Below, in pieces: positions 6,654-23,426 of a stretch of DNA of 64,000 bases; the stretch's first letter is position 1, and each line of letters begins with the position of its first letter. A model generated the notes under the pieces. It saw only the letters and a list, made by a program, of their open reading frames with translations. It was not told the DNA's origin and made no database searches. Position numbers and translations under genes: made by a program. This DNA is from Burkholderiales bacterium (GTDB lineage: Bacteria > Pseudomonadota > Gammaproteobacteria > Burkholderiales > Burkholderiaceae_C), in contig JACRAY010000005.1 in the NCBI GenBank assembly GCA_016213325.1, positions 248,001 through 312,000 of the forward strand, written 5' to 3'.

Positions 6654-7877
6654 TCAGGCCAGCAGGTCGTACAGCGTGCGGGCCACGACCTTGGTGGCGC
6701 GCCGCAGGTCGTCGAGCACGATGTGCTCGTCCGCGCGCTTGGCATTGGACTCGAGCACGGTGCGCGGCCCGGCGCCATAGATCACGCCGGGCACGCCCGC
6801 TTCGCCATAGAGCCGCACGTCGGTGTACAGCGGCGTGCCCATGGCGGGGATGTCCCGGCCGAACAGCTCGCGCCCGTGCTGCTGGATGGCCGCCACCAGC
6901 GGCTGGTTGCCGGGCAGCGGCTTCAGCGATTTGGCGAGCAGCATGCGGCGAACCTCGACGCGGATGCCCGGTTGCTGCGCGGCCGCTTCCTCGATCACGC
7001 GCCGGACCGCGGCTTCCACTTCGACCGGGTTCTCTTCGGGAATCATCCGCCGGTCCAGCTTGAACGTGACCTTGCCGGGGACCACGTTGGTGTTGGTGCC
7101 GCCTTCGATGAGGCCGATGTTCAGGTACGGATGGCGGATGCCGGGTACCTTCGACGTGACCTGGCGATACAGCGTGTTCTGCCCGTACAGAGCATTGAGG
7201 ATCTTCACCGCGCCTTGCAGCGCGTCGACGCCCGTGTCGGGGATGGCGGCATGCGCCATCTTGCCGTGCACCGTCACTTCCATCTGCAGGCAGCCGTTGT
7301 GCGCGGTCACCACTTCGTAGCTGAAGCCGGCGGCGATCATCAGGTCGGGCTTGGTCAGGCCGTTCTTCAGCAGCCAGCCGGGGCCCAGCTCGCCGCCGAA
7401 CTCCTCGTCGTAGGTGAAGTGCAGTTCGACGCCGCCCTTCAGTGCGGCGCCCAGCGCCTCGAGCGCGCGCACCGCAAAAGTGAAGGTGGTGAAGTCGCAC
7501 TTGCTCACCGCGGCCGCGCGACCGTACAGCTTGCCGCCTTCGATTTCGCCGCCATAGGGGTCGTGCGTCCAGCCTTCGCCCGGCGGCACCACGTCGCCAT
7601 GCGCATTGAGGGCAACCGTGCGGCCTTCGCCATAACGCCGGCGCACGATGAGGTTGGTGATGGACGCCATGCCGCAGGCCTGCACGGCGTCGGCAGGCAC
7701 CGGGTGCTTTTCGGCAGGCAGGCCGAACGCCTCCAGCAGTTGGGCCGTGCGCTCGGCGTGCGGCGCGTTATTGCCGGGTGGCGTGTCGGTGGGCACGCGC
7801 ACCAGCTCCTGCAGGAAGGCCACCTGCTCGTCGAAATGCGCGTCGACCCAGGCGTCGAGTTTCTCGTAGGGGTTCAT
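6654..7877 (-). CDS. M20-family metallohydrolase, last gene of the purine operon
   Basis: A 407-residue protein of the ArgE/DapE/M20 zinc-hydrolase family. Visible ligands are His93 and Asp95 (NAHGDVV) and the Glu158-Glu159 pair (YDEE). At the place of the usual bridging aspartate (LYGRGAxDMKG) the protein reads LYGRAAAVSKCD, so Val124 replaces that Asp by my alignment. Its ATG overlaps the stop of the uraD/allC fusion by 4 bp (7874-7877), so it is translationally coupled to allantoate degradation. A step on ureidoglycolate, ureidoglycine or another N-carbamoyl compound is plausible, because no lyase for that step is seen nearby. That is inference; the family also includes dipeptidases and deacylases. 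Confidence 0.82.
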   Translation of the reverse strand: MNPYEKLDAWVDAHFDEQVAFLQELVRVPTDTPPGNNAPHAERTAQLLEAFGLPAEKHPVPADAVQACGMASITNLIVRRRYGEGRTVALNAHGDVVPPGEGWTHDPYGGEIEGGKLYGRAAAVSKCDFTTFTFAVRALEALGAALKGGVELHFTYDEEFGGELGPGWLLKNGLTKPDLMIAAGFSYEVVTAHNGCLQMEVTVHGKMAHAAIPDTGVDALQGAVKILNALYGQNTLYRQVTSKVPGIRHPYLNIGLIEGGTNTNVVPGKVTFKLDRRMIPEENPVEVEAAVRRVIEEAAAQQPGIRVEVRRMLLAKSLKPLPGNQPLVAAIQQHGRELFGRDIPAMGTPLYTDVRLYGEAGVPGVIYGAGPRTVLESNAKRADEHIVLDDLRRATKVVARTLYDLLA

Positions 7878-9646
7878 GTGTGTTCTTCGGCCAGCTGTTG
7901 CAGCAGGTGCGAGAAGGCGCGCACCGCCAGGTCGATGTCGTCGCTGGTCGTGCTCTCCAGCGGGTTGTGGCTGATGCCCGAGTTCTGGCCGCGCACGAAC
8001 AGCATGGCCTGCGGCATGACCTCGTGCAGTTTCATGGCGTCGTGGCCGGCGCCGCTGGGCATGCGATGCAGGGGCACGCCGAGCGCCTCGACGGCCTGCT
8101 CCCAGCGCGCCTGCCATCCGGGTGCGCTCGGCGCCGCCGCCGCGCGCATGGTTTCCTCGGCGCTGCAGTGCAGGCCGCGCCGTTCGCAGATGGCCTGCAG
8201 CTGCGCCAGCACGTCGGCCACCAGCGCGTCGCGCTGCGCGTCGTTGGGGGCGCGCAGGTCCAGGCTGAACAGGCAGCGGCCCGGCACCACGTTGATCGAA
8301 CCGCCCGGCACCTGCAACATGCCGATGGTGCCCACGCTGTCGCCGTCGCGCGCCGCACGCTGCTCGATGTAGAGCGCGAGTTCCGCCGCCGCTACCGCTG
8401 CATCGCGCCGACGGTCCATCGGCGTGGTGCCCGCGTGGCTGGCCATGCCCGTCACTTCGCACTGGAAGCGCACGCCGCCGTTGATGGAGGTGACGATGCC
8501 CAGGGGCAGGTCGATCTCGTTGAGCACGGGGCCTTGCTCGATGTGCACCTCGACGAAGCCGAGGTAGCGGGCCGGGTCGCGCTTCACCTTCGGGATGTCG
8601 CCGATCGGCAAGCCGGCCTGCTGCATCGCCTCGCGCATCGAGACTCCGTCGGCGTCTTTCTGGTCCAGCCAAGCTGGGTTGAAGTGGCCCGTGAGCGCGC
8701 CCGAGCCGAGGAAGGTGGCCTTGTAGCGCTGGCCTTCCTCTTCGGCGAAGCCCACCACTTCGATGCCGAAGGGCAGCCGTTGGCCCGCGCGAGCCAGCTC
8801 GCGCACGCAGGCCACCGGCGTGAAAATCCCCAGTCGCCCGTCGTACTTGCCGCCATTGCGCACGGTGTCGTAGTGCGAGCCGGTCAGCAGCCGCTTTTCT
8901 CCCTCACCGGCGTGATACACCCCCACCACATTGCCCACCGCATCGATGCCCACCTCGTCGAAGCCGCTGTCACGCATCACCTGCACCAGCAGCTGCGCGC
9001 AGGCGCGGTGCGCGTCGGTGAGGTAGGTGACGGTGAGCTGGCCCTTGTCCTTGAACTCCGGGTCGCTGAACTGCGCGAGCTGCTCGTGCCAGTCCCACAC
9101 CAGGTTGCCGAGCGCCGGCTCCATGCCGAACTTGTCGTTCAAGCGCAGCTCGACGATGCGATGGATGTTGCGCAGCGCTTCCGGCAGCTCGAAGTCCGGC
9201 GGGTTGTCCAGCCGCCGCTCGAACGTATCGATGATCTCGCGGCGAGTGAGCCCGGTGCCGCGCGGGCCGCGTACGGCCAGGATGAAGGGGAAGCCGAACT
9301 TCGCGTTGTAGGCGGCGTTGAGCCGCTGGATCTTCGCGAATTCTTCCGGCGTGCAGTCGGCCAGGCCGGCCTTGCCCTGTTCATGGGTGGATTCGGCAGT
9401 GAGTGTCTTCGCGACCATTGCCTTGCCGGCCAGTTCGGGGTGGGCGCGGATGAGCGCGAGCTGCCTGTCGCGCCCGGCGTCGCGCACCACGCCGGCCATC
9501 GCGTGCTTCAGGTGCGCCAGCGAGTGGAACGGCCGCTGTGCCAGCGCCTGCTGCGCGATCCACGGCGAATGTTCGTACAGGCCGTCCAGCAGCTGCGCGG
9601 CTTGTTCCGGGCTGGCGGCGTTGAGTTGTTCCAGTGTCAGGGCCAT
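7874..9646 (-). CDS. Fusion of OHCU decarboxylase (UraD) and allantoate amidohydrolase (AllC)
   Basis: A 590-residue two-domain enzyme. Residues about 1-165 are 2-oxo-4-hydroxy-4-carboxy-5-ureidoimidazoline decarboxylase, with an RPFHSLAHL segment, the HPELAG block and KFGFPFILAV. Residues about 175-590 are an M20-type allantoate amidohydrolase with GSHYDTVRNGGKYDG, the AEEEGQRY metal and catalytic block, EVHIEQGPVL and SGAGHDAM. It thus joins the enzyme that makes S-allantoin to the one that opens allantoate, with the intervening allantoinase encoded just upstream. Only 2 bases separate it from the stop of puuE; the start at 9646 gives the usual UraD N-terminus. Domain assignments are strong; whether the second half uses allantoate or a related ureido acid is inferred from context. 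Confidence 0.92.
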   Translation of the reverse strand: MALTLEQLNAASPEQAAQLLDGLYEHSPWIAQQALAQRPFHSLAHLKHAMAGVVRDAGRDRQLALIRAHPELAGKAMVAKTLTAESTHEQGKAGLADCTPEEFAKIQRLNAAYNAKFGFPFILAVRGPRGTGLTRREIIDTFERRLDNPPDFELPEALRNIHRIVELRLNDKFGMEPALGNLVWDWHEQLAQFSDPEFKDKGQLTVTYLTDAHRACAQLLVQVMRDSGFDEVGIDAVGNVVGVYHAGEGEKRLLTGSHYDTVRNGGKYDGRLGIFTPVACVRELARAGQRLPFGIEVVGFAEEEGQRYKATFLGSGALTGHFNPAWLDQKDADGVSMREAMQQAGLPIGDIPKVKRDPARYLGFVEVHIEQGPVLNEIDLPLGIVTSINGGVRFQCEVTGMASHAGTTPMDRRRDAAVAAAELALYIEQRAARDGDSVGTIGMLQVPGGSINVVPGRCLFSLDLRAPNDAQRDALVADVLAQLQAICERRGLHCSAEETMRAAAAPSAPGWQARWEQAVEALGVPLHRMPSGAGHDAMKLHEVMPQAMLFVRGQNSGISHNPLESTTSDDIDLAVRAFSHLLQQLAEEHT

Positions 9647-9648
9647 GT

Positions 9649-10587
9649 TCAGCCTTCGAAGGGGTGGGCCTGCTTCCAGTGGCGGGCAATGTCGATGCGG
9701 CGGCACACCCACACGCGGTCGTGCCGCGCGACGTGGTCCAGGAAGCGCTGCAGTGCGACGATGCGCCCGGGCCGGCCGAGCAGGCGGCAGTGCATGCCGA
9801 CGCTCATCATCTTCGGCGCTTCGTCGCCTTCGGCATACAGCGCATCGAAGGTGTCGCGCATGTAGGCGAAGAAAGGCTCGGCATGCGAATAGCCTTGCGG
9901 CAGCGCGAAGCGCATGTCGTTGCAGTCCAGCGTGTAGGGCACCACCAGGTGCGGCACTACGGCGCCGTCGGTCTTGCGCACCTTCATCCAGAAGGGCAGG
10001 TCGTCGCCGTAATAGTCGCTGTCGTACTCGAAGCCGCCGTAGTCGGCCACCAGCCGCCGCGTATGGGGGCTGTCGCGGCCGGTGTACCAGCCGAGTGGCC
10101 GGTCGCCGGTGAGCTGATGGATGGTCTCCATGCCGATGCGCATGTGCTCGCGCTCGGTGGCCTCGTCGATGCCCTGGTAATTGATCCAGCGCCAGCCGTG
10201 GCACGCGATTTCGTGGCCCAGCTCGCGGAAGGCGGCGGTGACTTCGGGCGCGCGTTGCAGCGCCATGGCGACGCCGAACACCGTGAGCGGCAGGCCGCGC
10301 CGCTCGAACTCGCGCAGCAGCCGCCAGACGCCCGCGCGCGAGCCGTACTCGTAGATGCCCTCCATGCTGAGGTGGCGGTCCGGGTACGACGGAGGGTTGG
10401 CCATCTCGGACAGGAACTGCTCGGAGCCGGCGTCGCCGTGCAGCACGCTGTTCTCGCCGCCTTCCTCGTAGTTCAGCACGAACTGCACGGCAATGCGCGC
10501 GTTGCCGGGCCACTGCGCGTTCGGCGGGTTGCGGCCGTAGCCGCGCAGGTCGCGCGGGTAGGGCGCTGTGGTGTCGTAGGTGCTCAT
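9649..10587 (-). CDS. puuE: Allantoinase, polysaccharide-deacetylase type
   Basis: A 312-residue PuuE-type allantoinase, the metal-cofactor-independent form related to polysaccharide deacetylases; it opens allantoin to allantoate. The N-terminus DLRGYGRNPPNAQWP and the block FVLNYEEGGENSVLHGD are typical, as are GHEIACHGWRW and the C-terminal SVGMHCRLLGRPGR. Length is that of the family. It is the second gene of the leftward operon: its ATG overlaps the stop of the gntR gene by 4 bp (10584-10587), and 2 bases separate it from the uraD/allC fusion. Likely repressed by the adjacent GntR regulator. Confidence 0.95.
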   Translation of the reverse strand: MSTYDTTAPYPRDLRGYGRNPPNAQWPGNARIAVQFVLNYEEGGENSVLHGDAGSEQFLSEMANPPSYPDRHLSMEGIYEYGSRAGVWRLLREFERRGLPLTVFGVAMALQRAPEVTAAFRELGHEIACHGWRWINYQGIDEATEREHMRIGMETIHQLTGDRPLGWYTGRDSPHTRRLVADYGGFEYDSDYYGDDLPFWMKVRKTDGAVVPHLVVPYTLDCNDMRFALPQGYSHAEPFFAYMRDTFDALYAEGDEAPKMMSVGMHCRLLGRPGRIVALQRFLDHVARHDRVWVCRRIDIARHWKQAHPFEG

Positions 10588-11249
10588 GACAGCGCGGTGG
10601 AAAGGTCCTGCGTCGGCACCGGGCGGTGGAAGGCCAGGCTCTCCTCGACGTGCTGCAGGTGGTCGACCATGAGCTTCACGGCGCGCTTCTCGTCGCGCCC
10701 CGCCAGCGCCCGGACGATTTCGACGTGCTCTTCCTGCGAATGGCTTGCTGCGCCTTCGCGCTGGTACATCAGCGAGATCAGCGAGCTGCGCGACACCAGG
10801 TCGCGCAGGATCTGGGCCAGCACCTCGTTGCCGGTGAGCTCGGCCATGCGCACGTGGAAGTCGCCGAGCAGCTCGTTCTGGCCCGCCGTGTCGTGGCGCT
10901 CACCGGCCGCCTGTTCCTGCGCCACGTGGTCCTTCAGCGCGCGGATGCGTGCCGGCGTGACGTTGCGCACGAACTCGCGCGTCATCTCGGCTTCGAGCAT
11001 GCGGCGCACCTGGAACACCTGCCGGGCTTCTTCGACCGTGGGTGCCGCGACGAAGGCGCCGCGCGCCGGCTCCATCTTCACCAGCCGGTTCTGCGCCAGC
11101 TGGAACAGGGCCTGCCGCACCAGCGTGCGCGACACGCCGAAGTGGTCGGCCAGCTTCTGCTCGGCGAGCTTGGTGCCGGGCTGCAGCCGGTGGTCGACGA
11201 TGGCCCGGGTGATCGCCTCGACGATGGCATGGGTGGTCGTGGACTCCAT
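10584..11249 (-). CDS. GntR-family (FCD) regulator of purine catabolism
   Basis: A 221-residue transcription factor. The winged helix (about residues 1-70, with KLADHFGVSRTLVRQAL) is of GntR type; residues 80-215 form an all-helical FCD ligand-binding domain with the expected metal-type Asp/His pattern. The start at 11249 is chosen because the longer in-frame reading would begin inside the operator. As the first gene of the operon gntR-puuE-uraD/allC-M20 it would autoregulate. The palindromic TGTATACA site lies 30 bp upstream, shared with divergent uraH; a near-copy precedes puuD. The effector is probably a purine intermediate such as urate or allantoin, which is inference from context. Confidence 0.9.
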   Translation of the reverse strand: MESTTTHAIVEAITRAIVDHRLQPGTKLAEQKLADHFGVSRTLVRQALFQLAQNRLVKMEPARGAFVAAPTVEEARQVFQVRRMLEAEMTREFVRNVTPARIRALKDHVAQEQAAGERHDTAGQNELLGDFHVRMAELTGNEVLAQILRDLVSRSSLISLMYQREGAASHSQEEHVEIVRALAGRDEKRAVKLMVDHLQHVEESLAFHRPVPTQDLSTALS

Positions 11250-11277
11250 GCAGCCATGATAGCCGCAAATCCAAAAA

Positions 11278-11301
11278 GTGTATACACTTCGGTCCACAAA
11301 A
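11278..11301. promoter_or_regulatory. Putative GntR operator between gntR and uraH
   Basis: A perfect 10-bp palindrome GTGTATACAC is followed by TTCGGTCCACAAAA. The 24-bp stretch matches the one at 13122-13145 at 22 positions, including the non-palindromic tail. It sits between the divergent gntR and uraH start codons (11249 and 11315) and its tail ends just before the uraH ribosome site. GTATAC-centred palindromes are typical of GntR/FadR-type regulators. Binding is inferred from position and repetition. Confidence 0.72.
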
Positions 11302-11314
11302 CAGGAGCATGACC

Positions 11315-11668
11315 ATGGGCCTGAGCACCCACGTCCTCGACACGATGCACGGCACGCCGGCGCCGGGCATGCAGGTGCAGCTGTACGACACGACCGGCGG
11401 TGCGGCCACGCTGGTGAAGCAGTTCGAGTTGGATGCGGACGGCCGCAACCCCGGCGGCGCGCTGTTCGACGACGCTAGCCTCAGGCAGGGCACCTACCGG
11501 CTGGTGTTCAGTGTGGCCGCGTACTTTCGCGGCCGCGGCGTGGCGCTGCCCGATCCGCCTTTCCTGGACCGGGTCACGCTGGACTTCGGCATCGCCCACC
11601 CCGAGCAGCACTACCACGTGCCCTTGCTGGTGAGCCCGTGGAGCTACTCCACGTACCGGGGTTCCTAG
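11315..11668 (+). CDS. uraH: 5-hydroxyisourate hydrolase (transthyretin-like)
   Basis: A 117-residue transthyretin-related enzyme that hydrolyses 5-hydroxyisourate, the product of urate oxidation, to OHCU. Signatures are LSTHVLDTMHG at the N-terminus, the central QHYHVPLL and the C-terminal SPWSYSTYRGS, which carries the family YRGS end. There are two close ATGs (11309 and 11315); AGGAG at 11303-11307 is 1 base from the first and 7 from the second, so 11315 is preferred. The gene is divergent from gntR and shares its operator. It converges with the TonB-like gene, overlapping it by 4 bp at the stop codons. Confidence 0.96.
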   Translation: MGLSTHVLDTMHGTPAPGMQVQLYDTTGGAATLVKQFELDADGRNPGGALFDDASLRQGTYRLVFSVAAYFRGRGVALPDPPFLDRVTLDFGIAHPEQHYHVPLLVSPWSYSTYRGS

Positions 11669-12177
11669 TCCTGGCCTTCGGTCAGGGTGTCGAGCTGGAA
11701 GCGGCCGCTCTTGTGCCACAGCCACGTGTCGGTGTAGACCACCTTGCCCATACGCGCGGGCACGGGGTAGGGCGCCGCGGCCATCACGGTGCGCTCGATC
11801 TCCTTTACCACTTCGGGCGCGTGGCTGGGCTTGCGCATCCAGTCGATCCTCTGCACGTTGCCCTTGCGGTCCACTTCGACGTTCAGCACGCCGATGGCGT
11901 ACAGCAGGGGCGGCAGGCGGCCCTTGAAGATGCGCGTGGCGTTCTGCGCGTAGATGTGGGAGGCGGCGTCCTTGCGGTAGGCACGCGGGTTGACGGCGTC
12001 GGACTTCATGACGTAAGTGTCGCCGCGTTCTTCCAGTGCCCCTTGTGCCGGCGCAAGGGGACGGGGCGCCGGCTGCACCACGGCCGGGTCACGCGGCAGC
12101 GGGGTAGAGGTGCACGCTGCGAGCAGCGCGGCCAGGGCTACCGGTGCGCCGTGGCGCAGGATCGAGTAATGCTTCAT
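11665..12177 (-). CDS. TonB C-terminal-like lipoprotein
   Basis: A roughly 170-residue exported lipoprotein: the N-terminus has a hydrophobic stretch ending in LAALLAACTS, a lipobox. A proline-rich linker follows, and then about 80 residues resembling the TonB C-terminal fold (IGVLNVEVDRKGNVQRIDW then VMAAAPYPVP). Burkholderiales have many small proteins of this kind annotated as TonB-family energy transducers. The usual TonB membrane anchor is replaced here by a lipid anchor, so it is unlikely to be a classical energy transducer. Two adjacent ATGs (12180 and 12177) follow a GGGGA site; the second has better spacing. Its role is unknown and it interrupts the purine cluster. Confidence 0.7.
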   Translation of the reverse strand: MKHYSILRHGAPVALAALLAACTSTPLPRDPAVVQPAPRPLAPAQGALEERGDTYVMKSDAVNPRAYRKDAASHIYAQNATRIFKGRLPPLLYAIGVLNVEVDRKGNVQRIDWMRKPSHAPEVVKEIERTVMAAAPYPVPARMGKVVYTDTWLWHKSGRFQLDTLTEGQD

Positions 12178-12321
12178 CATGAGTCCCCGTTGGTATGTAC
12201 GACTGCGCACGCCGTCACCGGTGGCGCGATGCTTCAACGGCCCAGCTTCCTGCCCTGACGACCTTGCTTTACTCTAGCGGCGAGCTTGTCACCAACTGAT
12301 GCACGTAATCACCGAATCGGC

Positions 12322-13110
12322 ATGAAAGAAATCACAAAGAGCGATGCGAAGCCCGTCGCCGTGCTGGTTTCGGTGGATCGGGCGCAGGGCTCGGTGCCGC
12401 GCGAGGAAGGCGCCTGGATGGCGGTGTCCGCCGATTCGGTGGAAGGCACCATCGGCGGCGGGCACCTCGAGTTCGAGGCCATCGCGCAGGCCCGCGCGCT
12501 GCTGGCGGGGCAGGGCGGCGAGGCGGTCGTGCGCTATCCGTTGGGGCCCAGCCTGGGCCAATGCTGCGGCGGCGTGGCCCACCTGCGGTTTCGGTCGGTG
12601 ACCGCGGGCGAACTGGCGCAGGCGCGCGCGCAGCTCGCATCGGCCCTGGCGCCGGTGGCGCTGTTCGGCGGCGGGCACGTGGGCCAGGCGCTGGTGCGTG
12701 TGCTGGGGACGCTGCCCTTCGAGGTCACCTGGGTCGACAGCCGCGACGAGATCTTTCCGGCGGAAGTGCCGGCCAACGTGCATTGCGAGCATTCCGACCC
12801 GGTGCAGGCGGCCGTGGGTGGGCTGCGCCCGGGTTCCCGCGTGCTGGTCATGAGCTTCAGCCATGCCGAAGACCTCGACATCGTGGCGGCCTGCCTGAAG
12901 CGGCAGCGGGTGCATGGCGACCTGCCCTACATCGGCCTGATCGGCAGCAAGACCAAATGGGCGGTGTTCCGGCACCGGCTGGAGCAGCGCGGCTTCTCCG
13001 CGGATGAGCTGGCGCGCGTCACGTGCCCCATCGGCGTGCCCGGCATCGCGGGCAAGCAGCCCGGGGTGATCGCCGTGGCCGTGGCCGCCCAGCTGCTGCA
13101 GCTTGCATGA
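12322..13110 (+). CDS. xdhC: Xanthine dehydrogenase accessory protein XdhC
   Basis: A 262-residue XdhC/CoxI protein, which binds molybdenum cofactor, promotes its sulfuration and inserts it into xanthine dehydrogenase. Seen are RAQGSVPREEGAWMAV, the GTIGGGHLEFEA motif, the cysteine block LGQCCGG and a Rossmann motif FGGGHVGQAL, ending with IGVPGIAGKQPGVIAVAVAA. The ATG at 12322 is used; an in-frame TTG at 12286 is possible, and neither has a strong ribosome site. The dehydrogenase genes xdhA/xdhB normally next to xdhC are absent from this window, so they must lie elsewhere. Only the intergenic operator region separates it from puuD. Confidence 0.93.
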   Translation: MKEITKSDAKPVAVLVSVDRAQGSVPREEGAWMAVSADSVEGTIGGGHLEFEAIAQARALLAGQGGEAVVRYPLGPSLGQCCGGVAHLRFRSVTAGELAQARAQLASALAPVALFGGGHVGQALVRVLGTLPFEVTWVDSRDEIFPAEVPANVHCEHSDPVQAAVGGLRPGSRVLVMSFSHAEDLDIVAACLKRQRVHGDLPYIGLIGSKTKWAVFRHRLEQRGFSADELARVTCPIGVPGIAGKQPGVIAVAVAAQLLQLA

Positions 13111-13121
13111 ACGCTCAGAAA

Positions 13122-13145
13122 CTGTATACACTCCGGTCCACAAAA
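13122..13145. promoter_or_regulatory. Second copy of the GntR-type operator, upstream of puuD
   Basis: TGTATACA followed by CTCCGGTCCACAAAA; 22 of 24 positions match the site at 11278-11301. It lies 102-125 bp before the puuD start, just after the xdhC stop codon. Repetition of the whole 24 bp, not only the palindromic core, suggests that a promoter element was kept along with the operator. Confidence 0.68.
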
Positions 13146-13158
13146 GTCGCAGCGGCAA

Positions 13159-13183
13159 TTAATTGGAATCTGACCCCGATTAA
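13159..13183. repeat. Short AT-rich palindrome-ended repeat-like motif
   Basis: A 25-base stretch beginning TTAATTGGAATC and ending ACCCCGATTAA has complementary ends (TTAAT/ATTAA) and much lower GC than its surroundings. It resembles the GGGGTCAGATTCCAATT words that recur near REP-associated transposases in proteobacteria. Only one copy is in this window. It lies between the operator and the puuD start. Confidence 0.35.
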
Positions 13184-13246
13184 CAGGCGCGACACACGCT
13201 GCTCAGAGCGCCCGCGGTGGTGAGCAGGTCCTTCGGACAGACAGCC

Positions 13247-14446
13247 ATGGAAAGCTATCTCCTCGACTGGGCCAACCTGCTGCTGCGGTGGGTCCACGTG
13301 ATCACCGCCATCGCCTGGGTCGGCTCGTCGTTCTACTTCGTCTTCCTCGACTCCAGCCTCACGCCGCCCACCAGCGACCGCCTGCGCGCGGAAGGCGCCA
13401 CCGGCGAGCTGTGGGCGGTGCACGGCGGCGGCTTCTACCACCCGGTGAAGTACGCGGTGCAGCCACCGCAACTGCCGCCGCACCTGCACTGGTTCTACTG
13501 GGAAAGCTATTCGACCTGGCTGTCGGGCTTTGCGCTGTTCACGGTGTCGTACCTCTGGAGCGCCGGCACCTACCTGGTCGACAAGTCGCTGGTGGACTGG
13601 GCGCCGGCGACGGCCATCGGGGTGGCGCTGGCCTTCCTGGTCGCCTTCTGGGCCCTGTACGACCTGATCTGCCAATTGTTCGGCCAGCGCAAGAATGGCG
13701 ACGCCATCGTCGGCGCCTTGGTGTTCGTCCTGGTGTGCGTGGCCTCATGGCTCGCATGCCACTGGTTCGCCGGCCGCGCAGCTTTCCTGCTGGTGGGGGC
13801 GATGCTGGCCACCGCCATGAGCGCCAACGTGTTCTTCTGGATCATCCCGGGCCAGAAGACGGTGGTGAAGGCCATCGAGACCGGCCAGCCGGTGGACCCG
13901 ATCCACGGCATCCGCGGCAAGCAGCGCAGCGTGCACAACACCTACTTCACGCTGCCGGTGCTGTTTTCGATGCTGTCCAACCACTACGGCTTCCTGTACT
14001 CGCACCAGCACAACTGGCTGGTGCTGATCCTGATGATGTTCGCGGGCGCGGCCATCCGCCAGTTCTTCGTCATGCGCCACGGCTGGAAGCTCGGGCGCAA
14101 CCCGCACCCCATCGGCTATGCGGTGGCGGGCGTCGTGACCATCGCCGCCGTCGCTGCGTGGATGGCCCCCGACACCAGCCAGGCCGCGAAGGCCCCGGTG
14201 GCAGCGGCCGGTTATGCCGAGGTGCGCCAGGTGCTGCAGCAGCGTTGCCTGCAATGCCACGGTGCGCAACTGCAGATGAAGAACGTGCGGCTCGACACGC
14301 CCGAAGCATTGAAGACGCATGCGCAGGCGGTGTACCAGCAGGCCGTGGTGGCGAAGACCATGCCGATGAACAACGCCACCGGCATGACCGACGCCGAACG
14401 GGCCCTGCTGGCCCAGTGGTTCCAGGCGGGCGCCAAGGTGCAGTAG
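13247..14446 (+). CDS. puuD: Membrane urate oxidase with C-terminal cytochrome c domain
   Basis: A 399-residue PuuD-type urate oxidase, an integral membrane enzyme that converts urate to 5-hydroxyisourate. About eight membrane helices are visible (e.g. LLLRWVHVITAIAWVGSSFYF near the start), with conserved His-rich segments HGGGFYHPVKY and WFYWES. Residues about 320-399 form a periplasmic cytochrome c domain with one heme site, Cys334-Cys337-His338 (CLQCH), so electrons probably go to the respiratory chain rather than making H2O2. The ATG at 13247 is used because it begins at the first helix. The upstream region carries the second GntR-type operator. Glycerate kinase follows 40 bp downstream. 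Confidence 0.95.
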   Translation: MESYLLDWANLLLRWVHVITAIAWVGSSFYFVFLDSSLTPPTSDRLRAEGATGELWAVHGGGFYHPVKYAVQPPQLPPHLHWFYWESYSTWLSGFALFTVSYLWSAGTYLVDKSLVDWAPATAIGVALAFLVAFWALYDLICQLFGQRKNGDAIVGALVFVLVCVASWLACHWFAGRAAFLLVGAMLATAMSANVFFWIIPGQKTVVKAIETGQPVDPIHGIRGKQRSVHNTYFTLPVLFSMLSNHYGFLYSHQHNWLVLILMMFAGAAIRQFFVMRHGWKLGRNPHPIGYAVAGVVTIAAVAAWMAPDTSQAAKAPVAAAGYAEVRQVLQQRCLQCHGAQLQMKNVRLDTPEALKTHAQAVYQQAVVAKTMPMNNATGMTDAERALLAQWFQAGAKVQ

Positions 14447-14486
14447 CCCCGGGTTACCACGCGGTTACGGCGTCACAATCGCATCC

Positions 14487-15803
14487 ATGGCCGCCCCCGA
14501 CCCGCACACCCACCCGCACGCGTTTCTCGAACACCTGTACCGGGCCGCGGTGCAGCGCGCCCTGCCGCTGCACAACACGGCGGCTTTCCTGCCGCAGCCG
14601 CCCAAGGGCCGCACTGTCGTGCTGGGCGCGGGCAAGGCCGGCGGCGCCATGGCGCAGGCGGTCGAGGCGCTGTGGCCTGCCCAGGCGCCCCTGTCGGGGC
14701 TGGTGGTCACGCGCTACCACCACGTCCCGCCGCGCCCCGCCGGGCTGGCGCAGCGCATCGAAGTGGTGGAGGCGGCGCACCCGGTGCCCGACGCCGCAGG
14801 GCTGGAAGCGGCGCAGCGCATCCTGCAGCTCACGCAGGGCCTCACCAGCGACGACCTGGTGCTGTGCCTCATCTCCGGCGGCGGCTCGGCTTTGCTGACG
14901 CTGCCGGCCGATGGCCTCACGCTGCAGGAAAAGCAGCGCATCAACCGCGACCTGCTCGACTCCGGCGCCAACATCGGCGAAATGAACTGCGTGCGCAAGC
15001 ACCTGTCGCGCATCAAGGGCGGGCGGCTCGCCGCTGCCTGCGCGCCGGCAAAAGTGGTGACGCTGACCATCAGCGACGTGCCGGGCGACGACCCTTCAGT
15101 CATCGCCAGCGGGCCGACGGTGCCCGATGCGTCGACCTGCGCCGATGCCGTTGCCATCCTGCAGCGTTACGGCATCGAGGTGCCCGCGGCCATCATGGCG
15201 AAGCTGCAGCACGGCCAGCTGGAGACGCCCAAGCCGGGTGACCCGGTGTTCGAGGGGCACGAGGTGCACCTGATCGCCACGCCGCAGCAGTCGCTGGAAG
15301 CTGCCGCGGCCGCGGCGCGCGCCGCCGGCGTCGAGGCGCACGTCCTCAGCGACGAAATGGAAGGCGAGTCGCGCGAGGTCGGCAAGGTCCATGCCGCGCT
15401 GGCGCGTGCGGTCGCGCTGCGCGGCCAGCCCTTCCGCAAGCCCTGCGTGATCCTCTCCGGAGGAGAGACCACGGTGACGGTGCGCAAGGCGCCCGAAGGA
15501 GCGCCGCGCGGGCGCGGCGGGCGCGCCGGCGAGTTCTGCCTGGGGCTGGTGCAGGCGCTGCAGGGCCAGCCCGGCGTGTGGGCGCTGGCTGCCGACACCG
15601 ACGGCATCGACGGCATGGAAGAAAACGCCGGGGCCTGCGTCGGCCCGGAAACCCTGTCGCGCGCCTTGTCGCTGGGCATGAAGGTCGACCAGTACCTGGC
15701 GCGCAACGACGCCTACGGCTTCTTCCGGCTGCTCGACGACCTGGTGATTACCGGACCGACCCACACAAACGTGAACGACTTCCGGGCCATGCTGGTCCTG
15801 TGA
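14487..15803 (+). CDS. Glycerate 2-kinase (DUF4147/MOFRL)
   Basis: A 438-residue kinase of the GckA/TtuD family that phosphorylates D-glycerate to 2-phosphoglycerate. The N-terminal DUF4147 domain shows GAGKAGGAMAQAVE, the CLISGGGSALL loop and VRKHLSRIKGGRLA; the C-terminal MOFRL part shows SGGETTVTV and ADTDGIDG. In this context it would return glyoxylate-derived carbon (glyoxylate to tartronate semialdehyde to glycerate) to central metabolism, as the last step of purine use. A tartrate dehydrogenase lies close downstream, and TtuD-type kinases also serve tartrate use, so it may serve both. Confidence 0.93.
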   Translation: MAAPDPHTHPHAFLEHLYRAAVQRALPLHNTAAFLPQPPKGRTVVLGAGKAGGAMAQAVEALWPAQAPLSGLVVTRYHHVPPRPAGLAQRIEVVEAAHPVPDAAGLEAAQRILQLTQGLTSDDLVLCLISGGGSALLTLPADGLTLQEKQRINRDLLDSGANIGEMNCVRKHLSRIKGGRLAAACAPAKVVTLTISDVPGDDPSVIASGPTVPDASTCADAVAILQRYGIEVPAAIMAKLQHGQLETPKPGDPVFEGHEVHLIATPQQSLEAAAAAARAAGVEAHVLSDEMEGESREVGKVHAALARAVALRGQPFRKPCVILSGGETTVTVRKAPEGAPRGRGGRAGEFCLGLVQALQGQPGVWALAADTDGIDGMEENAGACVGPETLSRALSLGMKVDQYLARNDAYGFFRLLDDLVITGPTHTNVNDFRAMLVL

Positions 15804-15865
15804 TTCTCACGGGCGGACAGACGCGTTAGAGTCGCGGAGCCGGACTCAAAGAGAGAAAGACCCCC

Positions 15866-16930
15866 ATGTCGCAAGGGAAGCCCCCGCCCAAGGGCGGCCA
15901 AGACAAGGCCGCACTGGAGAATTTCATCGACCGCCTGTCGCGGCATGCGAAGGAATTGAAGGGCGTGGACGCCAGCTCCATCCGCGACCAGTGGGACACG
16001 CGGCTGGAGGTGCTGCAGAAGAAGATCAACACCAGCCTGGGTGACATCCTGGGGGTCAGCACCCCGGAGTACAAGCAGTACAAGCAGGGGACCTTCTTCC
16101 ACGGGCTCGACACCACTTTCGGCGACCGCTATTCCACCGACGAGCTGCAGCAGGCGCTGAAGAAGGGCCTGGGGGTGGCCGTGAGCAACCTCGAGGCGGT
16201 GAAGAAGCTGCTGGCCGACCGGCTGGAGGCCGGCTCGGCTGCGCCGACGCCGGCACCCACGGAGGCGCCGGCGCCCCCGCCTCCGCCCCCGCCTCCGCCG
16301 CCGCCACCTCCTCCCGTTACCGCAGCACCGACGCCTGCGCCGACCCAGGCGCCACCGCCACCGCCACCGCCACCGCCACCGCCACCGCCACCGCCACCCC
16401 CGCCTGCGCCGCCAGCCGCGACGAAGGCCCCTCCTCCCCCACCGGCGACCCCGGCGCCCACGAGCGCGCCACCGCCGCCGGCCACTTCGCCAACCGCATC
16501 CGCATCCAAGAAGACCATGACCACATCCCACAATCGCGTCGCGCTCGTCGGCCCGCTCGACGACACCGCCAGCCAGGCCTCGGAACTGCTCGACCAGCTC
16601 GGCCTGGAAGCCGTGGTGGTCGGCAAGCCCGCCGGTGCCAAGGACAGCATCTCGCTGGAGGCGCTGGAGGGCCTGCGCGACGTCGATTACGCGATCGTCA
16701 TGGCCTCCGGCGATGGCGACTCACCCACGGCCTTCCTCACGCTCGGCTTCCTGCTGGCCGTGCTGGGCCGCGGCCGCCTCTGCTTCCTGGCGCCGCCCTC
16801 GCAGTCGGCCTTCCCCGCGCTGGGCGATGCGGTGCGCGTGAGCACCGACGAAGCGGGCCTGTGGCGGCTGCTGATGGCGCGTGAGATGAAGAAGGCCGGG
16901 CTCGCGGTCGACCTGAACAAGGCGATGTGA
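15866..16930 (+). CDS. Three-part protein: helical N-domain, polyproline linker, degenerate TIR-like domain
   Basis: A 354-residue protein that I do not recognise as a named gene. Residues about 20-122 are helical (IRDQWDTRLEVLQ, LGVSTPEYKQY), like the N-domains that precede TIR-like predicted nucleotide-binding domains (the PF10137 type, also found in CBASS/Pycsar effectors). Residues about 125-215 are Ala/Pro/Thr-rich, with two pure proline runs of 14 and 18 residues. Residues about 222-354 follow the TIR-like pattern: a first strand RVALVGP, LDQLGLEAVVV, DYAIVMASGD, LGFLLAVLGRGRLCFL, and the end AREMKKAGLAVDLN. The glutamate expected before LGxF (pattern NVxFELGxF) is Thr292, so NADase activity seems lost. 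No signal peptide or membrane segment. The domain call is by eye. Confidence 0.65.
   Translation: MSQGKPPPKGGQDKAALENFIDRLSRHAKELKGVDASSIRDQWDTRLEVLQKKINTSLGDILGVSTPEYKQYKQGTFFHGLDTTFGDRYSTDELQQALKKGLGVAVSNLEAVKKLLADRLEAGSAAPTPAPTEAPAPPPPPPPPPPPPPPVTAAPTPAPTQAPPPPPPPPPPPPPPPPPPAPPAATKAPPPPPATPAPTSAPPPPATSPTASASKKTMTTSHNRVALVGPLDDTASQASELLDQLGLEAVVVGKPAGAKDSISLEALEGLRDVDYAIVMASGDGDSPTAFLTLGFLLAVLGRGRLCFLAPPSQSAFPALGDAVRVSTDEAGLWRLLMAREMKKAGLAVDLNKAM
16351..16398. repeat. Tandem 6-bp repeat encoding polyproline
   Basis: Eight perfect copies of GCCACC (frame CCA-CCG) encode the second polyproline run of the TIR-like protein. The first proline run (about 16266-16316) uses mixed proline codons, so only the second looks recently expanded. 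Such a tract can change length by slippage in multiples of two codons without breaking the frame. Confidence 0.85.
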
Positions 16931-16939
16931 AAGGGGGGA

Positions 16940-17037
16940 GCTGGGGTTCCACCCCAGCCTACAGGAGACCCCGACGCCGTGTTACCCGGCACCCGATGCC
17001 GATGGCGTGTTTTCGTAGGCTGGGGTGAAACCCCAGC
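16940..17037. repeat. Paired-hairpin intergenic repeat, copy 1
   Basis: Two hairpins with the same arms, GCTGGGGT and ACCCCAGC with 3-base loops (16940-16958 and 17019-17037), face each other; the 23-bp outer segments are inverted repeats with one mismatch, each bordered inside by CTAC/GTAG. The spacer is about 52 bp. It fills the gap between the TIR-like gene and the tartrate dehydrogenase gene, ending 15 bp before the latter's ATG. The same family recurs at 23335-23426. This is REP/BIME-like architecture. Confidence 0.8.
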
Positions 17038-17052
17038 GACCAGGAGCCCAGC

Positions 17053-18120
17053 ATGAAGACCTACCGCATTGCCTGCATCCCCGGCGACGGCATCGGCAAG
17101 GAAGTGATCCCGGCCGGCCAGGCCGCGTTGCAGGCACTGGCCGATGCCCAGGACAGCTTCCGCTTCGAGTTCCAGTCGTTCGGCTGGGGCGGCGACTGGT
17201 ACCGGCAGCACGGCGAAATGATGCCGGCCGACGGGCTCGATGCGCTGCGCGGCATGGACGCCATCCTGTTCGGCTCGGCCGGCGACCCCGGCATCCCGGA
17301 CCACATCACGCTGTGGGGGCTGCGCCTGAAGATCTGCCAGGGCTTCGACCAGTACGCCAACGTGCGGCCCACGCGAATCCTGCCCGGCATCGACGCGCCG
17401 CTGAAGCGCTGCAAGCCAGCCGACCTCGACTGGGTGATCGTGCGCGAGAACTCCGAAGGGGAGTACGCCGGTGTCGGTGGTCGCGCCCACCAGGGCCACC
17501 CGATCGAAGTGGCCACCGACGTGAGCATGATGACCCGCGTGGGCGTCGAGCGCATCATGCGTTTCGCCTTCCGGCTGGCCGAGTCGCGGCCGCGCAAGCT
17601 GCTGACGGTGGTCACCAAGTCCAACGCCCAGCGCCATGCGATGGTGATGTGGGACGAGATCGCGGCCCAGGTCGCCAGGGAGTTCCCGGCCGTGCGCTGG
17701 GACAAGGAGCTGGTGGACGCCTGCACGGCGCGCATGGTCAACCGGCCCGCCTCGCTCGACACGCTGGTGGCGACCAACCTGCATGCCGACATCCTGAGCG
17801 ACCTGGCAGCGGCACTGGCCGGCAGCCTGGGCATCGCGCCCACCGGCAACATCGACCCCGAGCGCCGCTACCCGAGCATGTTCGAGCCGATCCACGGCTC
17901 GGCCTTCGACATCATGGGCCAGGGCCTGGCCAACCCGGTGGGCACGTTCTGGAGCTGCGTGATGCTGCTGGAGCACCTGGGCGAGGGCGCAGCGGCGCAA
18001 AGGCTCATGCAGGCGGTGGAAGCCGTCACGGCCGACCCGTTGCTGCACACGCGCGACCTGGGCGGCACGGCCACGACGCAGCAGGTGACCGCGGAGGTCT
18101 GCCGGAGCTTGCGCGCATGA
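17053..18120 (+). CDS. Tartrate/D-malate dehydrogenase (isopropylmalate dehydrogenase family)
   Basis: A 355-residue NAD-dependent hydroxyacid decarboxylating dehydrogenase. Signatures are IPGDGIGKEVIPAG at the N-terminus, the substrate-side ENSEGEYAG, the TDVSMMTR segment, KSNAQRHAM, the metal-binding ATNLHADILSDLAAAL and the adenine-binding EPIHGSAFDI. The sequence is of the TtuC/DmlA type (tartrate dehydrogenase, D-malate dehydrogenase) rather than LeuB or isocitrate dehydrogenase; the exact substrate is not certain. GACCAGGAGC precedes the ATG. The last 4 bases (ATGA) overlap a candidate start for the amidohydrolase, and a binding protein and an isochorismatase-like gene follow on the same strand, suggesting an organic-acid uptake and use operon. 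Confidence 0.9.
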   Translation: MKTYRIACIPGDGIGKEVIPAGQAALQALADAQDSFRFEFQSFGWGGDWYRQHGEMMPADGLDALRGMDAILFGSAGDPGIPDHITLWGLRLKICQGFDQYANVRPTRILPGIDAPLKRCKPADLDWVIVRENSEGEYAGVGGRAHQGHPIEVATDVSMMTRVGVERIMRFAFRLAESRPRKLLTVVTKSNAQRHAMVMWDEIAAQVAREFPAVRWDKELVDACTARMVNRPASLDTLVATNLHADILSDLAAALAGSLGIAPTGNIDPERRYPSMFEPIHGSAFDIMGQGLANPVGTFWSCVMLLEHLGEGAAAQRLMQAVEAVTADPLLHTRDLGGTATTQQVTAEVCRSLRA

Positions 18121-18168: not shown

Positions 18169-19563
18169 GTGCCGCTGCAGCCGGTGGAACGGCAGGCCAA
18201 CCAGGCCGCGCAGGAACTCACCGAGCGGGGCGCCAGGCGCAGCGGCATGGCGCGGCGTGCCTACCTGGCCTCGGCCTGCGGGGCCGCCGCCACCCTGCTG
18301 GCCTTCGACCGCGTGTTCGCCGCGGCGGGCCGCACCGGAGGGCGCTACGTCGTCGAACCCGATGCGGCTTTCGACGCTCAGCTGGCGCAGGCCGCGGTCG
18401 GCGGCGACGAGTTCATCTTCGACGTGCAGCTGCACCACGTGAACCCCAACGGCCCGTGGCGCCGCCCGGACAACGGTTGGGTGCGCGTGCTGTCGGAGGG
18501 CATGCCCTATTCGAAGTGCGGCGACAGCGACCCCGTAGCCTGTTTCTCGCGCGAGCGCCTGTTGAAGGACGTGTTCCTCGACAGCGACACCAGCGTGGCC
18601 GTGCTGTCGCACGTGCCGGCGATCCAGGCCAACGCGCCGCTGACGCACGAGGACGCGATAGCGACCAAGCGCGCCATCGACGTGCTCGACGGCACCGAGC
18701 GCCTCTTCCTGCACGCCGCCGTCAACCCGGCGGAGCCGGGCGCCATGGAGCGCATGGAAGCGCATGCGCGCAGCATGAAGCTGGCTGGTTTCAAGACCTA
18801 CACGCAGTTCGACCCCGACCCCAACGGGCCGGGCGGCTTCTGGCTGGACGACGAGAAGCTGGGCCTGCCGCTCATCGAGCAGGCGCGCCGCCTGGGCGTG
18901 CGCAACATCTGCATCCACAAAGGCTTTCCGCTGTCGCGGCGCGGCGTGCAGTTTGCGGGCTGCCGCGACATCGGCGTGGTGGCGAGGCGCTACCCCGACA
19001 TGAACTTCATCGTGTACCACTCGGGCTTCCTGCCGGCCAGGGGCGAGCGCGCCTACGACCCGGCCAACCCGAGCGGCATCGACGACCTGGTCAATTCGCT
19101 GCAGGCCAACGGCATCGCGCCCAATTCCAACGTCTACGCCGAACTGGGCTCGACCTGGCGTTACGTCATGCGCAACCCCAACGACGCCGCGCACCTGCTG
19201 GGCAAGCTGCTGCGCCAGGTGGGCCCCGACAACGTGCTGTGGGGCACCGACTCCATCTGGTACGGCAGCCCGCAGGACCAGATCCAGGCTTTCCGGGCGT
19301 TCCAGATCGCGCCGGACCTGCAGGAGCGGCACGGCTACCCGGCGCTGACGCCGGAACTCAAGCGCAAGATGTTCGGGCTGAACGGCGCGCGCGTTTACGG
19401 GCTGGACGCCAGCGCCCTGCGGCCGAAGCTGCGCAAGGACCCGCTGGGACGGGCCAGGGCCGGGTACCTGCCGCATGCCGACCCCCGGTTTGAAACTTAT
19501 GGCCCACGCGACCGGCGCGAATTCCTCGCTTTCAAGCGGCAAGAAGCGGGAAGTCACCTATAG
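18169..19563 (+). CDS. Tat-exported amidohydrolase, probable frameshift at the 5' end
   Basis: A 464-residue metal-dependent hydrolase of the amidohydrolase-2 type (FDVQLHHVNP near the start, NFIVYHSGFLP, LWGTDSIWYGSP). Residues about 24-55 (RRAYLASACGAAATLLAF) look like a twin-arginine signal. In this frame the only start before the signal is GTG 18169. An ATG at 18117 overlaps the upstream stop (ATGA) and opens MKLPIKLDSTSNGEFDP in another frame. Removing one C from the five-C run at 18164-18168 joins that peptide to PLQPVER here. So the true gene is probably 18117-19563 with a one-base insertion or a sequencing error. Substrate unknown; it is in the tartrate dehydrogenase operon. Confidence 0.82.
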   Translation: MPLQPVERQANQAAQELTERGARRSGMARRAYLASACGAAATLLAFDRVFAAAGRTGGRYVVEPDAAFDAQLAQAAVGGDEFIFDVQLHHVNPNGPWRRPDNGWVRVLSEGMPYSKCGDSDPVACFSRERLLKDVFLDSDTSVAVLSHVPAIQANAPLTHEDAIATKRAIDVLDGTERLFLHAAVNPAEPGAMERMEAHARSMKLAGFKTYTQFDPDPNGPGGFWLDDEKLGLPLIEQARRLGVRNICIHKGFPLSRRGVQFAGCRDIGVVARRYPDMNFIVYHSGFLPARGERAYDPANPSGIDDLVNSLQANGIAPNSNVYAELGSTWRYVMRNPNDAAHLLGKLLRQVGPDNVLWGTDSIWYGSPQDQIQAFRAFQIAPDLQERHGYPALTPELKRKMFGLNGARVYGLDASALRPKLRKDPLGRARAGYLPHADPRFETYGPRDRREFLAFKRQEAGSHL

Positions 19564-19615
19564 CGAGCCGCTGCCAACTTCGCTGCAATGGGCCGGTTAC
19601 TGCAAGGAGCTGAAG

Positions 19616-20569
19616 TTGAGCGTCAACCGATTCACCATCGCCGCCTGCCTGGCCCTGGCGGCCACCTCCACCTTTGCCCAGGGGTGCCCCGACAAGAACC
19701 TGATGTACTGGCAGGCCTTCCCGCCGGGCGGCGAGTCCGACATCTCGGCGCGCCACCAGCAGGTGGTGCTGAAGAAGAAGTGCCCGGCCATCGACACCAT
19801 CATCCAGTACAAGGCGGGCGCGGGCGGCGCGCTGATGTGGTCGCAGATGAACCAGCTGCCGGGTGACGGCCTCAACGTGGTGGGGGTCAACCTGCCGCAC
19901 ATCGTGTTCCAGCCGCTCGAAGGCGAGGTGCAGTACAAGACGGCCGACGTGACGCCGGTGTTCTGGTACCACTTCACGCCCGACGCGCTGGTGGTGCCCG
20001 AAGCCAGCCCGCACAAGACCTTTCAGGACTTCATTGCCTGGGCCAAGGTCAACCCGGGCAAGGCCAACCTCGGCGGGTCTGGCCGCAATTCAGCCAACCA
20101 TGCCTCGCACGAAAGGCTGAATGCCGCATTCGGCATCAAGAGCACCTACGTGCCGTACAAGGGTACCGGCGACATGACGCTGGCGGTGGTGGCCAACCAG
20201 ATCGACGGTGCCGTGAGCTACACCGCTTTCGCCATCAACAACAAGGGCAAGGTGCGCGCGCTCGCGGTTGCCATGGAGAAGCGCCATCCGCTGCTGCCCG
20301 ACGTGCCCACGTTCCGCGAGCTGGGGGTCGACTGGGTCGACGGCGCCTATCGCGGCATCGGCGTGCCCAAGGGCACGCCCGCGGCCGAGCGCAAGAAGCT
20401 GTCGGACATGTGGCGCGGCCTGAACAACGAAGCCGAGATGAAGGAGCTGGCGGCCAAGAGCGGCTTCGAGCTGACCAACGTGGGCGTGGAGGAAATGGAC
20501 GGCTTCATGCGCGACAAGGTGAAGCTGTACACCGAAGGCGCGCAGCGCCTGGGCCTCGGCAAGAAGTGA
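19616..20569 (+). CDS. Bug/TctC-type solute-binding protein
   Basis: A 317-residue periplasmic receptor of the tripartite tricarboxylate transporter (TTT) family. I place the start at TTG 19616: AAGGAG at 19604-19609 lies 6 bases before it and the product opens with a standard signal (RFTIAACLALAATSTFAQG). The mature part has the family's PPGGESDISAR ligand loop, GAGGAL, GGSGRNSANH and GIGVPKGTPAAER. It is unusual in the Cys-containing CPDKNLMYW start. No permease (TctA/TctB) is adjacent; the only pair in the window is at 56.4 kb. The next gene overlaps its stop by 4 bp. The ligand is probably a carboxylate linked to the tartrate dehydrogenase and amidohydrolase upstream. Confidence 0.88.
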   Translation: MSVNRFTIAACLALAATSTFAQGCPDKNLMYWQAFPPGGESDISARHQQVVLKKKCPAIDTIIQYKAGAGGALMWSQMNQLPGDGLNVVGVNLPHIVFQPLEGEVQYKTADVTPVFWYHFTPDALVVPEASPHKTFQDFIAWAKVNPGKANLGGSGRNSANHASHERLNAAFGIKSTYVPYKGTGDMTLAVVANQIDGAVSYTAFAINNKGKVRALAVAMEKRHPLLPDVPTFRELGVDWVDGAYRGIGVPKGTPAAERKKLSDMWRGLNNEAEMKELAAKSGFELTNVGVEEMDGFMRDKVKLYTEGAQRLGLGKK

Positions 20570-22612: not shown

Positions 22613-22792
22613 GCCGTTTGATCTAGAATCCGCCCCCACGGGTCCACAGTTCACCCAGTCGTTGCCGGAGCCTCGTGCTCACGCTGAACCTGTGACGAAC
22701 CACGAAGCTCCTGGCTTTTCCCCGGGCCTTCGCTGCAAGCGGCAACTCCAGCACTCGAGCGTTTCGAGTCGAGGCACGGATGGGAAACGCCC

Positions 22793-23334: not shown

Positions 23335-23426
23335 GCTGGGGTTGCACCCCAGCCTACAGGAATGCCCGGTTGGTGCGGGCGTTCGCGACGGGGTCCGGGC
23401 TTCGTAGGCTGGGGTGAAACCCAAGC
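23335..23426. repeat. Paired-hairpin intergenic repeat, copy 2
   Basis: Same family as 16940-17037: the left hairpin GCTGGGGT/ACCCCAGC (23335-23353) continues into CTACAGGA, and the right arm (23404-23426) reads GTAGGCTGGGG then TGAAACCCAAGC, with one decayed base. The internal spacer is unrelated in sequence to copy 1. It separates the convergent DUF2087 and DUF3016 genes and could act as a two-way transcription stop. Confidence 0.8.

Follow-up and report, generated by a model that had tools for sequence, protein, structure and literature searches.

The window examined here, a 64,000-nucleotide stretch from the genome of a Burkholderiales soil bacterium, contains a gene whose product is very probably a TIR pseudoenzyme, judging from the residues that it has kept and lost. 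The protein belongs to a family of Comamonadaceae, of which 72 distinct, near-full-length members were analysed. This pseudo-TIR family derives from PDC-S35, a group of proteins in which a helical domain is combined with a TIR domain of the CAP12/Pycsar type. TIR domains of bacteria are generally interpreted as enzymes that consume NAD or make signals; a family under selection in which the fold is kept but most of the NAD-binding residues are gone would show that bacteria can retain such a domain purely for binding or assembly.

Gene and protein architecture

The open reading frame at 15866-16930 is a real gene. It begins with an ATG 62 bp past the stop codon of a probable glycerate kinase gene, encodes 354 residues, and has a coding-like G+C content of 0.86 at the third codon position against 0.56 at the second. 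A promoter scan of 14300-17200 gave no match, and none was expected. A search with the family profile finds a single copy in the genome; the seven other matches cover model positions 97-195, chiefly the linker. The main features of the gene and its surroundings are as follows.

14487..15803, + strand: probable glycerate 2-kinase (Pfam DUF4147 and MOFRL; NCBIfam models match below their cut-offs)
15866..16930, + strand: pseudo-TIR gene, 354 aa, ATG start
15899..16231, + strand: N-terminal helical domain, residues 12-122, homologous to the PDC-S35 N-domain
16232..16528, + strand: disordered Pro/Ala/Thr linker, residues 123-221 (AlphaFold2 model, composition)
16274..16315, + strand: poly-proline run of 14, residues 137-150 (translation)
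16352..16405, + strand: poly-proline run of 18, residues 163-180 (translation)
16529..16927, + strand: TIR-like domain, residues 222-354 (predicted fold)
16724..16765, + strand: αC helix, residues 287-300, site of the catalytic Glu; core dimer interface in SfSTING
16739..16741, + strand: Thr292 codon, in the column of SfSTING E84
16847..16927, + strand: conserved C-terminal segment D328...GLWRLLMAREMKKAGLAVDLNKAM, in which W333, L335, R339, G345, D349 and N351 are invariant in 72/72 members
17053..18120, + strand: tartrate dehydrogenase, TtuC type (TIGR02089 above cut-off)
19475..20569, + strand: TctC-type receptor (PF03401)

The AlphaFold2 model of the protein, computed from a 50-row alignment, places helices within residues 14-122, leaves residues 123-220 without regular structure, and builds an α/β domain from about residue 222 to 354 (mean pLDDT 81.8). 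Residue 292, a threonine lying in AFLTLGFLLAVLGR, falls within the helix formed by residues 287-300. The helical N-terminus and the two proline runs, of 14 and 18 residues, described in the initial annotation are thus borne out by the translation and the model. The longer run is mostly encoded by a CGCCAC hexamer repeat (8.2 copies at 16350-16398).

All 72 members have a linker of 50-167 residues (median 102), of which 56-91% are Pro, Ala or Thr, compared with a median of 22.5 residues (19-25) in eight canonical relatives. Proline runs of at least 10 residues occur in only three of the 72. The conserved feature is therefore the long Pro/Ala/Thr linker and not polyproline, and the earlier description of the linker as stiff finds no support because polyproline is so rare in the family.

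Fold of the C-terminal domain

The C-terminal domain is predicted to have a TIR-like fold, as had been proposed from the sequence. This fold is common to the TIR domains of CAP12 TIR-STING (SfSTING, PDB ID: 7un8) and PycTIR (PDB ID: 8jsj) and to PF10137. In the fold comparison the nucleotide N-glycosidases MilB and DNPH1 trail the top-scoring TIRs by only about 2 Z units. A profile built from family and canonical rows matches the SfSTING and PycTIR TIR domains with E values of 7e-10 to 4e-5. PF10137 itself has no match in the whole window protein or across the window genome; with the TIR part alone it reaches 14.4 bits (E 0.038), under the Pfam gathering score of 24.7 bits. Thirteen of 35 family proteins match PF10137 at E<=0.01.

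The window protein differs from CAP12 TIR-STING and PycTIR in its surroundings. It has no STING match at E values up to 10, and the remark in the initial annotation that no cyclase is adjacent agrees with a scan of nine nearby genes, including three on each side, among which none was found.

Derivation from PDC-S35

PDC-S35 is a candidate phage-defence family in PADLOC; no paper using this name was found in open-licence PMC. Its PADLOC model matches the window protein with an E value of 2.2e-15 (no PADLOC cut-off applied) and the canonical protein P0048 with 3.4e-80, over profile positions 6-262 of 264; values of 1.8e-83 to 9e-77 were obtained for the three canonical proteins scanned among P0047-P0055. 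In the proteins P0047-P0055 an N-domain like that of the window protein is joined through a short linker to a typical CAP12/Pycsar TIR domain. Profile-profile comparison (hhalign) of the pseudo-TIR family with the canonical proteins gave a probability of 100 and an E value of 1.2e-38 over 273 columns, covering both the N-domain and the TIR. The window protein has the helical N-domain, the TIR and the full-length homology that characterize PDC-S35.

P0048 and its relatives share with the pseudo-TIR family the domain order, homology over both domains, and a C-terminal W...E...G...D.N signature. They differ in their linkers (19-25 residues in the eight measured) and in the motifs VHGHDD, GRTIIEK-like, LTPDD, RxRQNVxxELG and P[ST]D, which are mostly lost in the window family. 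Models for finding defence systems can pick up proteins that have probably ceased to act as defence enzymes, as the PADLOC PDC-S35 model does with the window protein.

An N-domain profile searched against 398 sampled genomes of the phylum matched, besides the window genome, only two, and the form present in these is the canonical one. Once among 30 matches, in P0056, the N-domain is fused ahead of a Hypoth_Ymh domain (PF09509), to which PADLOC PD-Lambda-3_B and a HEPN model match as well. This fusion suggests that the N-domain may be a portable module of defence proteins.

Active-site residues

In SfSTING, S10, R78 and N80 hold NAD, E84 is the catalytic residue and D110 is contributed by the dimer mate, and the αC helix forms a nonpolar dimer core (these points from the accessible part of PMC9402430). 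The equivalent positions were located on a PDB alignment in which the 7un8 row was counted with an offset of 8, a count of our own.

The window protein has lost the equivalents of R78, N80, E84 and D110, all four. The R78, N80 and D110 columns hold a gap, Thr and Ala, respectively, and Thr292 stands where PF10137 has the catalytic Glu of NVxxELG. The family alignment and the PDB alignment with SfSTING both place Thr292 in the catalytic column, as had been claimed from the sequence. The initial annotation saw the lost glutamate as the defect; the glutamate is indeed gone, but the loss is wider and includes most of the NAD-binding set.

Each of the four residues is kept in 8/8 canonical relatives. 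Across the 72 family members the N80 equivalent is never present, the D110 equivalent is found once (L103) and the R78 equivalent three times, its column being a gap in 53; the His of VHGHDD is absent from all 72. The E84 equivalent survives in 38. At the Thr292 column the 72 distinct members have E 38, A 28, T 2, Q 2, S 1 and H 1 (E 26, A 21, T 2 and S 1 in the 50-row alignment). By alignment, then, the NAD-binding set is mostly lost across nearly the whole family, beyond the glutamate alone. From the distribution, in which the pocket loss is nearly family-wide and Glu is still present in 38/72, we infer that in the glutamate-less lineages the Glu went last, after the other pocket residues.

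An alternative conserved glutamate elsewhere in the pocket would have offered a replacement, but no new conserved Glu is found in the glutamate-less members. The only well-kept one, Glu340, sits in the last helix and is ancestral, being present in 33/34 glutamate-less, 24/38 glutamate-keeping and 8/8 canonical proteins. These residues support the earlier proposal of a probably non-catalytic TIR of the CAP12/Pycsar type; inactivity is strongly suggested for the members without Glu and less strongly for those that keep it. One member, L103 (genome G692, 7767-8978), keeps the glutamate, has Asp in the D110 column and matches PF10137 over the cut-off, and is a candidate for residual activity.

Repeated loss of the catalytic glutamate

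In trees built without the Glu column, the pattern of presence and absence of the glutamate needs three changes by parsimony. A clade of 30 rows with Ala or Thr, which includes the window protein, has support values of 97 (bootstrap) and 96 (SH-aLRT); a second lineage, that of Ramlibacter sp. WS9 (L014), has Ser; the third is a clade of three rows with Gln, His and Gln (support 98/84). Placing all 34 glutamate-less rows in one clade is rejected with a p-AU of 0.024, in a test that is approximate and whose constrained group is defined by the trait itself. The catalytic Glu thus seems to have been lost independently on about three branches. Glutamate-keeping and glutamate-less members together offer a natural series for testing a binding or assembly role of the TIR domain.

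Selection and new constraints

Ratios of dN to dS (ω) were taken from 18 pairs with a TIR dN below 0.2; distant pairs were set aside, their dS being near saturation and the ratios among those listed reaching about 1.5. Five close glutamate-less copies (Polaromonas L002, L003, L006 and L007, together with L040) are under purifying selection: in all 10 pairs ω is 0.03-0.25 for the TIR domain and 0.01-0.25 for the N-domain. The window gene has no close DNA relative in this set. The TIR ω is 0.36 for a pair with Gln and His, and 0.12-0.57 for seven glutamate-keeping pairs.

Several positions distinguish the family from its canonical relatives, namely Arg271 (70/72 against 0/8), Asn55 (70/72 against 0/8) and Leu335 (72/72 against 1/8). 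Seven TIR positions (294, 333, 335, 339, 345, 349 and 351) are invariant in all 72 members. The αC helix carries on average 2.88 residues of the set DEKRNQH in canonical proteins, 2.24 in glutamate-keeping members and 0.09 in glutamate-less ones; because most glutamate-less rows form one clade, this drop in polarity is largely one evolutionary event.

Genomic neighbourhood

On its 3′ side the pseudo-TIR gene is followed by the tartrate dehydrogenase gene and then by genes for an amidohydrolase and the TctC receptor. The initial annotation named glycerate kinase and tartrate dehydrogenase as neighbours and treated them as bystanders. Both are present, but the association with this locus is conserved: 31 of the 36 carrier genomes of the window's genus, which are related to one another, have one or more of the three genes (glycerate kinase, tartrate dehydrogenase, receptor) within 5 kb and on the same strand. 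Of the other five, three have the gene at contig ends (G687, G720 and G733), one is unlinked (G198) and one shows no link in the 11.6 kb of sequence covered (G734). Gene order varies, with the pseudo-TIR gene lying before or after tartrate dehydrogenase, after glycerate kinase, or between others.

All eight gene-less genomes examined, out of 23, have tartrate dehydrogenase within 1 kb of a TctC receptor gene regardless, so the pseudo-TIR gene is not required for the cluster to persist. In the Curvibacter/Hylemonella branch the tartrate/glycerate linkage is absent; there, the 7/7 distinct named loci with upstream sequence (L013, L020, L022, L023, L026, L027 and L029) have a gene for a HerA-like ATPase upstream on the same strand, at most 1.8 kb away, which is Pfam PF05872 in three of them.

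The 9649-15803 region of the window is a urate/allantoin cluster comprising allantoinase PuuE, hydroxyisourate hydrolase, XdhC, a Urate_ox_N protein and the probable glycerate kinase. The Urate_ox_N protein, which we take to be PuuD, shows a weak cytochrome domain match.

Distribution of the family

Named carriers are Ramlibacter, Polaromonas, Caenimonas, Curvibacter and Hylemonella, besides assemblies labelled Burkholderiales, Comamonadaceae and Burkholderiaceae, with 30 loci. Within the window's genus the gene is carried by 36/59 sampled genomes (27/44 among good assemblies), and 23/59 have no match. Scoring of 7,997 candidates gave at least 34 relatives (P0002-P0035, of which P0035 is partial) among the matches listed; the last 10 of the 44 listed (E 7.5e-6 to 8.2e-3) were set aside, as they look unrelated or merely proline-rich, two of the 10 having been inspected. 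A family-wide search of 299 genomes found matches in 41, mostly to linker columns or the TIR alone, and spanning both domains in six.

Altogether, 117 ORFs or proteins contain both domains. A match-length filter removed eight (P0035, the canonical P0047, P0051 and P0053, and L010, L079, L090 and L114), and the 109 left were reduced to 80 distinct rows, of which 72 belong to the family and eight are canonical. ORFs cut by contig ends and frame-split ORFs (L026, L088/L113) are excluded from the counts. In the frame-split members, L026 (9866-11025) and L113 (7148-8320, the same gene as L088), the N-domain and TIR lie in different frames, with the break in the linker region. In G697, the source of L113, an assembly error is likely because the tartrate dehydrogenase there also has an in-frame stop.

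Carriage by mobile elements or phages was considered and rejected. Matches were found in 6/72,556 plasmid records and 1/50,697 phage records, all of them to the TIR part alone (37-39% of the query, under 31% identity), and none in either set covers 80% or more of the protein.

Proposed function and alternatives

The ancestor would have been a candidate anti-phage NADase of the PDC-S35 type, in which a short linker joined a helical sensor or partner domain to a CAP12/Pycsar-type TIR. Most of the NAD-binding residues may have gone, and the linker lengthened, when the Comamonadaceae family arose, and independent losses of the catalytic Glu in several lineages, including that of the window, would have followed. 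In the present protein the N-domain may bind a partner or itself, the linker of about 100 residues would act as a flexible spacer, and the TIR domain would self-associate through an αC helix without charged residues and the new conserved Arg271. The window protein is thus probably a self-assembling scaffold or regulator, and of the three roles suggested earlier (nucleotide sensor, scaffold or decoy) scaffold fits best. Since the gene lies within a tartrate/glycerate catabolic locus, its most likely job would be to organise or regulate the enzymes of that locus. The full statement, a pseudoenzyme derived from PDC-S35 that works by binding and not by catalysis and organises or regulates tartrate/glycerate enzymes, has in our estimation an even chance or slightly better at most. 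More tentative, and on balance doubtful, is the broader reading of an immune-to-metabolic domestication, in which a bacterial immune TIR lost its enzymatic function and became a non-catalytic assembly protein within a metabolic operon, dropping its Glu independently about three times. In open-licence PMC we found neither a report of the pseudo-TIR family nor a paper joining tartrate dehydrogenase with a TIR domain.

The closest published parallel found is the reuse of CAP12/Pycsar-type TIRs outside bacterial immunity by the amoebal proteins TirB and TirD which, in the accessible part of PMC13142454, have unstructured N-terminal linkers similar to those of the window family and show no NAD processing. 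According to the same part of that source, they are eukaryotic and were acquired by transfer, whereas the window family would be a reuse inside bacteria, and they keep the putative catalytic Glu that the window protein has lost.

It is rather unlikely, in our view, that the protein serves as scaffold or regulator with no connection to the tartrate/glycerate genes, the linkage reflecting only inherited gene order; this overlaps the preferred explanation but removes its metabolic role. Such a reading would account for the Curvibacter/Hylemonella branch and for the eight gene-less genomes that keep the metabolic genes together, but not as readily for a gene that remains within the cluster, its strand unchanged, though the order around it changes. 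That the protein still serves phage defence, its inactive TIR sensing or regulating an enzyme encoded at another locus, appears unlikely: descent from PDC-S35 and the fusion of the N-domain to Hypoth_Ymh, with its PD-Lambda-3_B and HEPN matches, would fit, but the conserved neighbours are catabolic, no plasmid or phage record matches 80% or more of the protein, and PF10137, the one type of partner searched for, is absent from the window genome and present at canonical strength in 2/59 genus genomes (G695 and G702). The same absence or rarity of canonical partners makes a decoy unlikely and disfavours an inhibitor acting on a canonical CAP12 TIR. PF10137 matches occur in 10 genomes of the genus, and in 8/10 the match is the pseudo-TIR gene itself; G695 carries a glutamate-less pseudo-TIR (L097/L118) and, on a different contig, a canonical-strength PF10137 protein (L120, E 1.7e-29).

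A nucleotide sensor is made less plausible by the loss of nearly all the residues that hold NAD in SfSTING, and we consider it quite improbable that the protein, or at least its glutamate-keeping relatives, is still an enzyme acting on NAD or another nucleotide with a remodelled pocket. Part of the family could be enzymatic because 38/72 members keep the Glu and L103 also has the Asp at D110; loss of the SfSTING set is no proof of inactivity, since the pocket residues in use may differ among TIR enzymes, and another substrate is conceivable because the fold scores of MilB and DNPH1 are close to those of the best TIRs. Yet A, T, Q, S or H occupies the Glu column in the window protein and 33 others, the N80 equivalent is missing from 72/72 and that of D110 from 71/72, and the domain has gained no new conserved Glu, Glu340 being ancestral. 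A decaying relic without function is highly improbable and disfavoured: the patchy occurrence (36/59 genus genomes) and the loss of active-site residues could be read in this way, but the low TIR ω among the five close glutamate-less copies, the seven invariant TIR positions and the gain of new conserved positions argue against it, and split frames are few, two of the three loci being one genome.

Other elements of the window

An inverted pair of REP-like palindromes, at 16940-16962 (- strand) and 17015-17037 (+ strand), lies 3′ of the pseudo-TIR gene, and the intergenic RNA there folds with a z score of -7.5. The 23-bp pattern, allowing up to two mismatches, has 83 forward and 81 reverse matches genome-wide, against 0 for a control pattern, and an extra copy is found at 23335-23357. 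The sole Rfam match of the window at the gathering threshold is RF02940, the 'COG3860' cis-regulatory RNA, at 22640-22695 (+ strand; 50.8 bits).
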